NCBI GenBank assembly: GCA_029210545.1
Contig: JARGFV010000085.1
Location: 1 to 11,437 of the forward strand
Reading direction: 5' to 3'
From: a bacterium
Lineage (GTDB): Bacteria; BMS3Abin14
DNA: 11,437 nt
The translations under genes were made by a program, and so were the position numbers. The notes under the pieces were generated by a model, which saw only the letters and a list, made by a program, of their open reading frames with translations, had not been told where the DNA came from and made no database searches. Each line of letters opens with the position of its first letter. The stretch's first letter is position 1. Shown piece by piece: positions 8,590 through 11,437 of the stretch.

Positions 8590-9873
8590 GTGGTGAGTTA
8601 TTCTGCCGGCCTTTTCAGATTGATGGTGGTTTCCATCGCGATACTCGCGTCGAGCGTTCTTTTTCCCGCCATGGCCGCGGGCGAGAACAGCTTCCCCTTG
8701 AGCCCCGGCAGCTCCTGGACTTACCGTGACCTTGATGGAAAGGAAGAGGTCCTGTTCATCAAGGGAACCACCAATAGACAGGGTGTGCTCCTGGTCGAAG
8801 CCTCCTACACGGGGCGAAAACCCTTCTACTACGTGATCACAGCCGAGGGCATCGGCCGCCTGGAACCAACGTCCCCTCCCGATTCCGCGGAGCTTTACGG
8901 TCAGCTGAGCTTTCTCATTAACTGGCCCCTGGAGCCGGGGAGAACGTGGAACTCCCCCTGGTCCGACCCTCCCCTCATCTTCACTGTGCTCGAACGGGGA
9001 CCGGTCACCGTCGCGGCCGGGACTTTCCGCAACGCCATCCGTATCGGTTATCGGTCCGCCACAGATCCCATTTACCTGGGATACATGTGGTTTGCGCCCG
9101 GTGTCGGTTTGCTTGTCCAGGCGGAGAGCGGATCCAGGGTGGAGCTCGTGAACTACGCCCTCACCGACCTTTTGCCGCCTCCCGCGTCGGGAGACGGGAT
9201 GAGCGACCTGGCCGTCTTGTTCCGTCCTCCACAGGGTGCCAGCGGTGGGCATGTCGTTGCCAGGAAAGGCGTCGCGTCATCTGCCCGCCTCACGTCCGTT
9301 GTGGGTGCCGGGGTCCTTTTTATGATGGTTCTGGCTTTTGCCGCCTACCTGCGTTCTGTAAGGGTCGATGTGGAACTGGAGAGCGATTCCCAGGTCCGGG
9401 AAGGCGAGGTGGCCCTGGCCTCGGCCATGGTCAGGGAAGGGCTTTACGGGGAGGCGGCCGAGATCCTCCAGCGTCTCACCGCCCGGCATCCCCAGTGGCC
9501 GGATATCGCCGCCCTCCTGGGGAGCGCCTACAGGGAGAGCCGCCAGTATGAGGAAGCGTGCCTGGAGCTCAAACGGGCACTGACCCTGAACCCCGACATG
9601 GCGGCAGCCCGTCTGGAGCTGGCCCGGACTTACCTTGACCTCGATGACCCGGTGCGCGCCATGGAAGAGGTGGAAGCCGTCCTGGGGGCCCATGGTGAAT
9701 TCGCGGACGCCTATTATCTGAAAGGGGAGGCTTTTGCATGTATGGGGCAGGATGAGGAGGCTCTCGAAGCTTTCCGGAAGGCCCTGTCCATCAACCCGTC
9801 TTTCGAAGAGGCTCAAGAGGCCCTGGAACTCTTCCTGGCGTCCCGGTCAGGCGATCAGGTCTTGACCCCTTAA
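8590..9873 (+). CDS. Exported single-pass membrane protein with cytoplasmic TPR domain
   Basis: A 427-residue protein of unknown specific function. Residues about 10-30 are a signal peptide or first membrane helix (LMVVSIAILASSVLF, then AMAAGENS). Residues about 33-190 resemble the extracytoplasmic beta-rich domain of many deltaproteobacterial lipoprotein-like proteins: YPL-type FPLSPGSSWTY at the start, VAAGTFRNAIRI, and YMWFAPGVGLLVQAESG near the end. A second membrane helix spans 236-254. Residues about 270-420 hold at least three TPR units: YGEAAEILQRLTARHPQW, YEEACLELKRALTLNPDM and DEEALEAFRKALSINPSF. The TPRs would face the cytoplasm. The GTG start at 8590 is provisional; GTG 8593 or ATG 8623 would also keep a signal sequence, and no clear Shine-Dalgarno decides. 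It stands alone between repeat-rich regions and is convergent with the hydrolase gene. Confidence 0.82.
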   Translation: MVSYSAGLFRLMVVSIAILASSVLFPAMAAGENSFPLSPGSSWTYRDLDGKEEVLFIKGTTNRQGVLLVEASYTGRKPFYYVITAEGIGRLEPTSPPDSAELYGQLSFLINWPLEPGRTWNSPWSDPPLIFTVLERGPVTVAAGTFRNAIRIGYRSATDPIYLGYMWFAPGVGLLVQAESGSRVELVNYALTDLLPPPASGDGMSDLAVLFRPPQGASGGHVVARKGVASSARLTSVVGAGVLFMMVLAFAAYLRSVRVDVELESDSQVREGEVALASAMVREGLYGEAAEILQRLTARHPQWPDIAALLGSAYRESRQYEEACLELKRALTLNPDMAAARLELARTYLDLDDPVRAMEEVEAVLGAHGEFADAYYLKGEAFACMGQDEEALEAFRKALSINPSFEEAQEALELFLASRSGDQVLTP

Positions 9874-9882
9874 ACTTTGTTA

Positions 9883-10128
9883 ATCGCCAAAGTCCATGCG
9901 GGACTTTGGCTCAACGGAAAGGAAAAAGCGGGGTTTTTCCTTTCCTCACGGAGACTGCTGATAGATCGCCAAAGTCTGTGCGGGACTTTGGCTCAACGGA
10001 AAGGGAAAAGCGGGGTTTTTCCTTTCCTCACGGAGACTGCTGATAGATCGCCAAAGTCCGTGCGGGACTTTGGCTCGACGGAAGGCGAAAAGCGTCGTTT
10101 CCGCCTTCCTCACGGACCAGTGACATGT
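9883..10128. repeat. Three tandem copies of an 82-bp two-hairpin element
   Basis: Units start at 9883, 9965 and 10047, so the period is exactly 82 bp. Each holds hairpin A (GCCAAAGTCC pairing with GGACTTTGGC, loop NTGCG; first copy 9886-9910) and hairpin B (in copy 1, GGAAAGGAAAAA at 9916-9927 pairing with TTTTTCCTTTCC at 9934-9945, loop GCGGGG). A conserved CACGGAGACTGCTGATAG linker follows in copies 1 and 2. Copies 1 and 2 are nearly identical. Copy 3 keeps the structure but differs in hairpin B at paired positions (GGAAGGC with GCCTTCC) and loses the linker after 10116. Since 82 is not a multiple of three, frames change with each unit and coding is unlikely. Confidence 0.85.
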
Positions 10129-10145
10129 TTTCCGGTCACTGATCC
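10114..10145. repeat. Hairpin at the end of the tandem array
   Basis: CAGTGAC (10118-10124) pairs with GTCACTG (10135-10141). GGA (10114-10116) and TCC (10143-10145) extend the stem past one C-A mismatch. The loop is 10 bases (ATGTTTTCCG). It may be a diverged end of the array or a separate element; it lies about 40 bases past the hydrolase stop codon. Confidence 0.5.
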
Positions 10146-10183
10146 GGGCGCCATTCCCAGGCGCAATTCGCTCAAGTTGCCGG

Positions 10184-10972
10184 TCATTTGAACAGATCGG
10201 TACGGGCGGACTCGAGAACCGGGAATTTTTCGCGCAGCTTCCGGACCTGGTCCATATCCACAGGCACTGAAAGCACCCCCTCCCCGTCACCCAGGGATCC
10301 CAGAACTTCACCCCAGGGGTTCACAACCATGCTGTTTCCCCCCATGACAAGCCCTTTGCCGTTGTCGCCAAAGGAATTGCAGGCAGCCACAAACATCTGG
10401 TTCTCGAGAGCCCTGACCCGGACCAGGTCGCGGAAGTGGTCGATCCTCGCTTCGGGCCACTGGGCGGAAACGATGGTCAACCGGGCCCCGTCCCGGCAAA
10501 GGCGCCTGGTGAGTTCCGGATACCTCAGGTCGAAACAGATGGCCATGCCGGCGGGGAACCCGCCCAGGTCCGCGATCACCGTCTTTCCCCCCGCCAGGAA
10601 GTGGAGATGCTCGCCTGTCATGGGGAAAAGGTGGATCTTGTCGTAGGTAGCCACCGTCTGGCCACCCGGACCAACCAGGATCAGGCTGTTTGCGATGCCG
10701 CTTTCCCTGTGAACGGGCAGGGAGCCGGCGAGGTGGACCCCGGAACTCGCAGCCGTCCGGGCCATCCATTCGAGGACCCGGCCGGACCCGGAGGCCATTT
10801 GATCCAGGTCCTTGTAATAGAACCCTGACGGGAACATCTCAGGCAGAAGAACCACGTCACCGTTCCCGGGACCGGCTTTGGCGAGGAGGCCCTCCGCTTT
10901 TTTGAGGTTCTCCTCGATGTCCCCGGGTACGACTCTCCACTGAAGGAGGTGGATGGTAAAGGTGCTATCCAT
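10184..10972 (-). CDS. Carbon-nitrogen hydrolase (nitrilase superfamily, omega-amidase-like)
   Basis: A 262-residue cytoplasmic amidohydrolase of the nitrilase superfamily, of typical length. The catalytic Glu-Lys-Cys triad is visible: Glu45 in LLPEMFPSGF, Lys112 in YDKIHLFP and Cys146 in AICFDLRYPEL. The second conserved glutamate is expected near Glu121 in GEHLHF. The EMFPSGF and CFDLRYPE motifs resemble the YafV/Nit2 omega-amidase branch, which hydrolyses alpha-ketoglutaramate and similar amides, but the substrate cannot be assigned from sequence alone. The ATG at 10972 has AGGAG (10983-10979 on the minus strand) six bases upstream, so the start is well supported. It is transcribed alone, convergent with the TPR gene. 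A 31-bp stem-loop repeat lies in its leader region. Confidence 0.9.
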   Translation of the reverse strand: MDSTFTIHLLQWRVVPGDIEENLKKAEGLLAKAGPGNGDVVLLPEMFPSGFYYKDLDQMASGSGRVLEWMARTAASSGVHLAGSLPVHRESGIANSLILVGPGGQTVATYDKIHLFPMTGEHLHFLAGGKTVIADLGGFPAGMAICFDLRYPELTRRLCRDGARLTIVSAQWPEARIDHFRDLVRVRALENQMFVAACNSFGDNGKGLVMGGNSMVVNPWGEVLGSLGDGEGVLSVPVDMDQVRKLREKFPVLESARTDLFK

Positions 10973-11024
10973 GGTAAACTCCTGTCGGGTGCATGGGTGC
11001 AGGAAGATCCTTTTCCACTGTCTA

Positions 11025-11055
11025 GCAGCGTGTCGGAAAACCCTGACACGCTGCG
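11025..11055 (+). repeat. 31-bp stem-loop family, copy A
   Basis: GCAGCGTGTC (11025-11034) pairs perfectly with GACACGCTGC (11045-11054) around loop GGAAAACCCT. TGTCGGAAGA follows soon after, so the GTCGGAA word occurs twice. It matches the copy at 8488-8518 over its whole length with substitutions. It lies about 55 bases upstream of the minus-strand hydrolase start. Confidence 0.6.
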
Positions 11056-11198
11056 TAAAAGTTTGTCGGAAGAACGCTTATAAAATTTTTTCTTCATATC
11101 AACCGATGATAAAGTGGTCGGTGAAGATGGTAAGTCACAGTTAACACAATGTATTATATAAAATACTGGACCAGGATCACATCTTCCAACAAACTCTA

Positions 11199-11257
11199 CC
11201 TAGGAGCCTGTGCCCTCCCTGTTAAAAAACAGGGAGGTTCTCGGACAGGCTCCTAGG
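11199..11257. repeat. Large composite stem-loop (GGAGCCTGT type)
   Basis: The outer stem is 13 bp and perfect: CCTAGGAGCCTGT (11199-11211) with ACAGGCTCCTAGG (11245-11257). An inner 10-bp perfect stem follows: CCTCCCTGTT (11214-11223) with AACAGGGAGG (11228-11237), closed by an AAAA loop. The two are separated by an asymmetric internal loop (GC against TTCTCGG). The size and the CCTGTCCGAGAA-like right arm (complement) suggest a dispersed REP-type element. Confidence 0.7.
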
Positions 11258-11277
11258 GTAAACAGTAAACCGTTTCC
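11257..11277. repeat. Heptanucleotide units after the large stem-loop
   Basis: GGTAAAC, AGTAAAC and CGTTTCC follow each other in 7-bp register directly from the end of the stem-loop. The GTAAAC core matches the array at 8464-8477, which also follows a long hairpin directly. Confidence 0.45.
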
Positions 11278-11330: not shown

Positions 11331-11345
11331 CAACATTGATAGGGT

Positions 11346-11408
11346 CGCAAAAAGTCCAGGCGGGACTTTTCGCTCCACGGAAAGGGAAAAGCGTCGTTTT
11401 CCCTTTCC
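11346..11408. repeat. Solo fourth copy of the two-hairpin element
   Basis: Hairpin A is present as GCAAAAAGTCC pairing with GGACTTTTCGC with one mismatch. Hairpin B is GGAAAGGGAAAA (11379-11390) pairing perfectly with TTTTCCCTTTCC (11397-11408), loop GCGTCG. The linker after hairpin B is altered: an extra stretch precedes TTACGGAGTGAGTC at the window edge. It lies about 1.3 kb from the tandem array. Confidence 0.75.
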
Positions 11409-11437
11409 TTACAAATCAATGACTTACGGAGTGAGTC

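Follow-up and report, generated by a model that had tools for sequence, protein, structure and literature searches.

We found that the 82-bp tandem array in the window (the whole 11,437-nucleotide stretch of DNA analysed, which is all of contig C85) is very probably a truncated MITE-type element, non-autonomous, modular and expanded in tandem, of a kind presumably moved in trans by an IS1182-like transposase. The element is assigned to the MITEs because it has terminal inverted repeats (TIRs), 6-bp target duplications (TSDs) in 17/36 complete copies and a near-clean empty site. Several features that mark membership of this class are present in it, namely TIRs, TSDs of constant length, a short sequence, high copy number and no ORF or transposase of its own (in the 1.1 Mb examined, no ORF of the element lay inside a TIR pair whose flanks match). 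Its anatomy is modular, its stems covary and it is present in some related genomes and absent from others. We propose that a solo element, made of two ~20-bp TIRs around hairpins B, C and E, would insert at AT-rich intergenic sites, often AANNTT, and duplicate 6 bp in doing so. Composites would arise when an 82-bp A'B' unit, and C/D likewise, is duplicated inside the element in the manner of a minisatellite, and the window array would be such a composite after the loss of both ends. The transposase of an IS1182-like subgroup, whose insertion sequence (IS) has nearly the same ends, would mobilise the element in trans.

Within the window, a repeat comparison placed the unit starts at 9883, 9965 and 10047, spaced 82 and 82 bp, with copy 2 being 96% and copy 3 being 74% identical to copy 1 (Table 1). 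The three copies at an exact 82-bp period described in an earlier note on this DNA are thus there, except that the third is incomplete and lacks the linker. The homology of copy 3 ends at ~10115, and its final ~13 bases are the beginning of hairpin C, the module that comes after the last unit in composite elements. Hairpin A' of these units is formed by GCCAAAGTC...GACTTTGGC, and hairpin B' is 30 bp long. Hairpin D is the final module of the array, beyond which the right terminal repeat and hairpin E are absent. Because neither terminal repeat nor hairpin E is present, the array is a remnant, a composite copy truncated at both ends, and it is probably immobile. It lies between convergent genes, as the earlier note had stated, with a TPR protein gene (+) ending at 9873 and a CN_hydrolase (nitrilase-type) gene (-) ending at 10184. 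The solo copy that the same note placed at 11379-11408 is hairpin B of a second element starting at 11338, whose left end is complete and which the end of the contig interrupts. A different repeat family, CTAGCAGCGTGTCGGAAAACCCTGACACGCTGC...CTAGGAGCCTGTGCCCTCCCTGTTAAAAAACAGGGAGGTTCTCGGACAGGCTCCTAG, occupies 11021-11258 of the window; its end sequences recur in L034 and beside a DUF772-like transposase fragment in L031, and it is probably a second MITE.

Table 1. Modules of the array and of the second element in the window
Feature	Position	Strand	Content	Evidence or remark
Unit 1, 82 bp	9883..9964	+	hairpin A' 9886-9910, hairpin B' 9916-9945, linker	matches covariance model R1
Unit 2, 82 bp	9965..10046	+	hairpin A' 9968-9992, hairpin B' 9998-10027, linker	matches R1
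Unit 3, without linker	10047..10113	+	A' 10050-10074, B' 10080-10109, variant stem GGAAGGC/GCCTTCC	matches R1
Hairpin C	10114..10145	+	CAGTGAC...GTCACTG, flanks GGA/TCC	present in composite copies; paired in fold
Hairpin D	10148..10164	+	GCGCC ATTCCCA GGCGC	module known from composite copies; paired in fold
Left flank of second element	11332..11337	+	AACATT	place expected for the 6-bp target duplication; right flank lies past the end of the contig
Second element, solo form, left part	11338..11437	+	left terminal repeat GATAGGGTCGCAAAAAGTCC, hairpin A, hairpin B 11379-11408, hairpin C start	covariance-model match C85:11343-11414, 95.9 bits

The family is abundant in the genome from which the window comes, an assembly of 2.72 Mb in 241 contigs. 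The array used as a query gave at least 40 matches and covariance models gave at least 150, while the 15-nt end RGTCGCAAAAAGTCC occurred exactly 186 times compared with zero occurrences of the reversed control pattern; 108 element places were found in 1.1 Mb sampled from the genome. Copies are therefore many, and the scarcity that the earlier note had named as telling against it was not seen. Model R1 is a sequence profile only, its structure being misregistered; it was replaced by model R2, with which the family-wide result was confirmed. Complete copies start with GATAGRGTCGCAAAAAGTCC and end with GGACTTTTTGCGARTCCATC, their TIRs, and most of them are solo forms of 154-155 bp, which make the length peak. 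In the alifold consensus of solo copies, the ends pair mutually and enclose hairpins B, C and E; alternatively, the left end of the solo element forms hairpin A, and each TIR spans ~20 bp. Folded as single-stranded DNA, the solo sequence reached z = -9.4. Composite forms extend up to 564 bp: after the left AB module and before the right end they hold further 82-bp A'B' units and C/D hairpins. The L006 copy holds three near-identical 82-bp units consecutively, with identical A'B' parts, and such a row indicates growth of the array through tandem duplication. A tiny form of ~46 bp (L051) consists of the two ends alone. Whole-element tandem repeats occur too, as in L052-L054 (G000:C6:3907-4240), where three solo-like elements stand head to tail ~160 bp apart with an N-run assembly gap inside. 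Of 41 contig starts, 21 have a copy no more than 200 bp away, compared with 2.7% of random positions, and the repeat is therefore a main cause of broken assembly. Two places with TIR pairs around long DNA (L082 4403-8164 and L153/L154) were set aside as separate elements whose flanks match by chance. At L061, L044 and L155, other miniature elements have the same ends and different insides (e.g., TCGTAAAAAGTCTCCTCGAGCCATTTTACGAGG...), which suggests that several MITE families may use one common mobiliser. No curated Rfam family matched the element at the gathering score, the below-threshold matches being chance miRNA models, and a search of the open-access literature for the end sequence returned papers on unrelated subjects only.

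The flanks of the copies record insertion. With element boundaries set as GATAG...CATC, the 17 perfect duplications compare with a mean of 1.2 and a maximum of 7 after shuffling of flanks among copies (5000 trials). AANNTT-like hexamers are common among the duplications, and the target sites are AT-rich and intergenic; composite copies often have no clear TSD. Duplications of 6 bp were also found in relatives (L110, AACATT; L156, AATGTT; L157, AATAAT) and in Desulfurivibrio sp. AMeS2 (L162, ATAATT; L179, ATATAT). For L157, a copy in G009, the orthologous site of G004 has no element and a single copy of the target region, and we call this empty site only near-clean because a few bases differ. 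The L156 pair also has a G009 site without the element, but unrelated DNA is found there and the site is not clean. The TIRs, the 6-bp TSDs and the empty site show that, of the three functions considered in the earlier note, a mobile palindromic element was the right choice. The element was detected in 11/12 genomes of the host's phylum, all 12 from one family, with up to at least 150 matches each; the contrast case is G001, a complete genome of the host's family with zero copies. When R1 was used as a sequence profile with strict filters, 0/86 genomes of other families matched, in what is a small sample. In the GTDB species set, scanning with exact patterns identified the element in the relatives SZUA-204, ZodW_Metabat.265, bin582 and PFL40 and, outside the relatives, in Desulfurivibrio sp. 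AMeS2, where the hairpin order is the same and the stems have diverged. Plasmids, phages and viral contigs had no match to the element.

The paired changes that the earlier note saw in hairpin B (GGAAAGG/CCTTTCC versus GGAAGGC/GCCTTCC) are correct, as is the series A-T, G-T and G-C at stem position 8. The same wobble route is visible genome-wide, position 8 of the GGAAAGG stem being A-T in 14, G-T in 4 and G-C in 108 unit sequences (a slightly redundant list). Among 21 diverse AB modules, 96.1% of cells were paired compared with 91.7 +/- 0.6% in shuffles (0/500), six pairs had changed on both sides compared with 2.3 (1/500), and the covariation score was 0.149 compared with 0.072 in shuffles and at most 0.060 in slid structures. 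For 18 distinct eight-pair B stems, 94.4% were paired and the maximum in 10,000 shuffles was 91.0%; these controls ignore the kinship of copies, yet the stem kinds are very different (GGAAAGGG, GGGAACCG, GGAAGGCG, GGAAAGCG and GGAAAACG, with their complements). Compensatory changes thus exceed chance over many copies and genomes, as a statistical check proposed in the earlier note was meant to establish. Its wider claim, that the folded form is what is kept, holds as far as this excess goes, but covariation by itself does not tell selection on a folded strand apart from palindrome-correcting mutation or module exchange. The pairing of the three internal hairpins may be kept across genera and in another phylum by folded-DNA selection, palindrome-correcting copying or module exchange, and the present data separate none of the three. 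We infer that the stems are kept because a fold or cruciform in the DNA, or palindrome-correcting copying, is important for the element, and not for a host RNA function.

It is possible, if somewhat less probable than its opposite, that the stems covary mainly by mutation (template switching in quasi-palindromes) together with whole-module exchange, with no selection on the folded form. This explanation addresses the cause of covariation and is compatible with the element being a MITE. It accords with changes that come in blocks (GGAAAGGG/CCCTTTCC to GGGAACCG/CGGTTCCC), with few intermediates and with strand-symmetric mispairs; however, the hairpin order persists with diverged stems in other genera and in Desulfurivibrio, where drift alone would be expected to erode it. 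The conservation of internal hairpins across genera also exceeds the needs of a plain MITE and counts against our own best explanation. There is also a scheme that we consider unlikely, in which the internal hairpins are working parts, a transposase or host factor recognises extruded multi-hairpin DNA, the stems are selected as folded DNA in a non-coding element found in more than one phylum, and tandem 82-bp units alter activity.

A further possibility, which we regard as improbable, is an RNA element kept by the host, whose hairpins would terminate the transcripts of the two convergent genes or protect their 3' ends. The RNA folding of the window array is strong (z = -6.7), the stems covary and the window copy lies between convergent stop codons, all of which would suit such a role. 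However, intrinsic terminators (a stem then a T run) were searched for at 9800-10250 on both strands and gave 0 sites, and the TSDs show insertion. The neighbours of the copies were 54 tandem, 13 divergent and 9 convergent, similar in make-up to all gaps of at least 60 bp (379/72/82), and in tandem settings 31 elements were opposite to the genes and 23 in the same orientation (copies at stretch edges excluded; genes from our own simple caller). One of 77 assessable copies was inside a gene (a 39-bp match), with predicted genes making up 84% of the DNA. Selection on an RNA strand should give an excess of G-T mispairs, whereas G-T was found 9 times and A-C 15 times (p = 0.31, low power), which indicates no strand preference. 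Since G-T mispairs do not exceed A-C and neither convergent genes nor one orientation is favoured, nothing points to a role as a strand-specific RNA or as a terminator. The termination or transcript-end protection of both neighbours raised in the earlier note is accordingly not borne out, there being no terminator, no convergent or orientation enrichment and no G-U bias on either strand.

Returning to a MITE moved in trans, we identified a candidate mobiliser in the window's genome, an intact 520-aa transposase ORF with DUF772 and DDE_Tnp_1 (G000:C1:15775-17337), whose nearest NCBIfam is IS1182 (116 bits, below the family cut-off of 270). The IS that carries it has the ends GACGGCATCGCAAAAAGTA / GATGGACCCGCAATTAGTC, which match the MITE ends at 16/19 bases. 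G009 and G007 contain fragments of the IS with this left end, which there matches the MITE at 17-18/19. The matches between IS and MITE ends range over 14-18/19, and such scores are scarce outside elements in 1.1 Mb. A Microvirga plasmid carries a distant transposase homologue (36% identity) with an 18-bp perfect inverted repeat, GACGGGGCGGTAAAAAGT, and 15/19 of the first 19 bases of this IS end are like those of the MITE. A 6-bp TSD was found on none of the IS copies, including the intact IS (flanks AATATT/AAGGTT) and the Microvirga copy, and IS and MITE are linked by the similarity of their ends. The IS is missing or fragmentary in most element-bearing genomes, with none in Desulfurivibrio. 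Judged from its ends, the IS1182-like transposase is likely to move the element in trans. Among other candidates, DruA/PF14236 gave no match (in a search without a positive control), and no similar end was seen at the IS1634-type transposase of L226. That IS1634-family gene (L226 1291-2205, G000:C154) has its start truncated by an element copy and reads partly out of the element. That the element is of REP/BIME type, with a RAYT (Y1 tyrosine transposase) as mobiliser, is mostly refuted and very improbable: the repeats are palindromic and intergenic and two Y1_Tnp proteins are encoded in the genome, of which one is RAYT-like (229 aa), but the gene for the latter, of the kind that the earlier note proposed to look for, sits among different repeats of the CTGACACMGGGGTTAC type, and the element's TIRs are long and its TSDs 6 bp, neither of which is known as a product of REP/RAYT insertion. 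The RAYT-like gene (L032 1429-2118), flanked by short palindromic repeats, likely belongs to a separate REP/RAYT system in the window's genome.

In a little-studied bacterial lineage, these findings explain a conspicuous and abundant repeat of the non-coding DNA at which assemblies break. Stem covariation across genera and phyla also makes folded-DNA selection on the internal hairpins of bacterial MITEs testable. Short, non-coding, palindromic elements with TIRs, for which an IS with similar ends has been proposed as the mobiliser in trans, include the Nezha, RUP, ERIC and Correia types. They consist of a single hairpin or are otherwise simple, whereas the window's element contains three or more hairpins internally, and modules that can expand. 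REP/BIME sequences with RAYT are likewise mosaics of intergenic palindromes; in contrast, the element described here has long TIRs and TSDs, and the resident RAYT-like gene has other flanking repeats. BOX of Streptococcus pneumoniae (PMC3049150, where the Nezha, RUP, ERIC and Correia-type MITEs are also named) is a modular, interspersed, MITE-like repeat that has modules for its ends and an inner module in tandem arrays of variable length, and it too is intergenic with a highly paired predicted structure. Its length is 67-637 bp (PMC3049150), compared with ~150-560 bp for the window's element. The hosts differ, no sequence relation is evident and the likeness is one of architecture only; the window's family is distinguished by demonstrable 6-bp TSDs, stem covariation across genera and ends resembling those of an IS1182-like element. 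BrickBuilt and MITE464/PgRS of Porphyromonas gingivalis (PMC4596501) are intergenic MITEs with an internal minisatellite and ends like those of a resident IS. Their units are 23 or 41 nt, their TSDs are inconsistent (2-5 bp) and their TIRs resemble IS5-family elements (PMC4596501), whereas the window's element has 82-nt two-hairpin units and its family consistent 6-bp TSDs. The family is new and its kind is already known, a MITE with BOX-like modular growth and a BrickBuilt-like internal minisatellite. It adds a second, independent modular MITE of the BOX kind, whose inner unit can expand, which shows TSDs and for which there is a plausible IS mobiliser.
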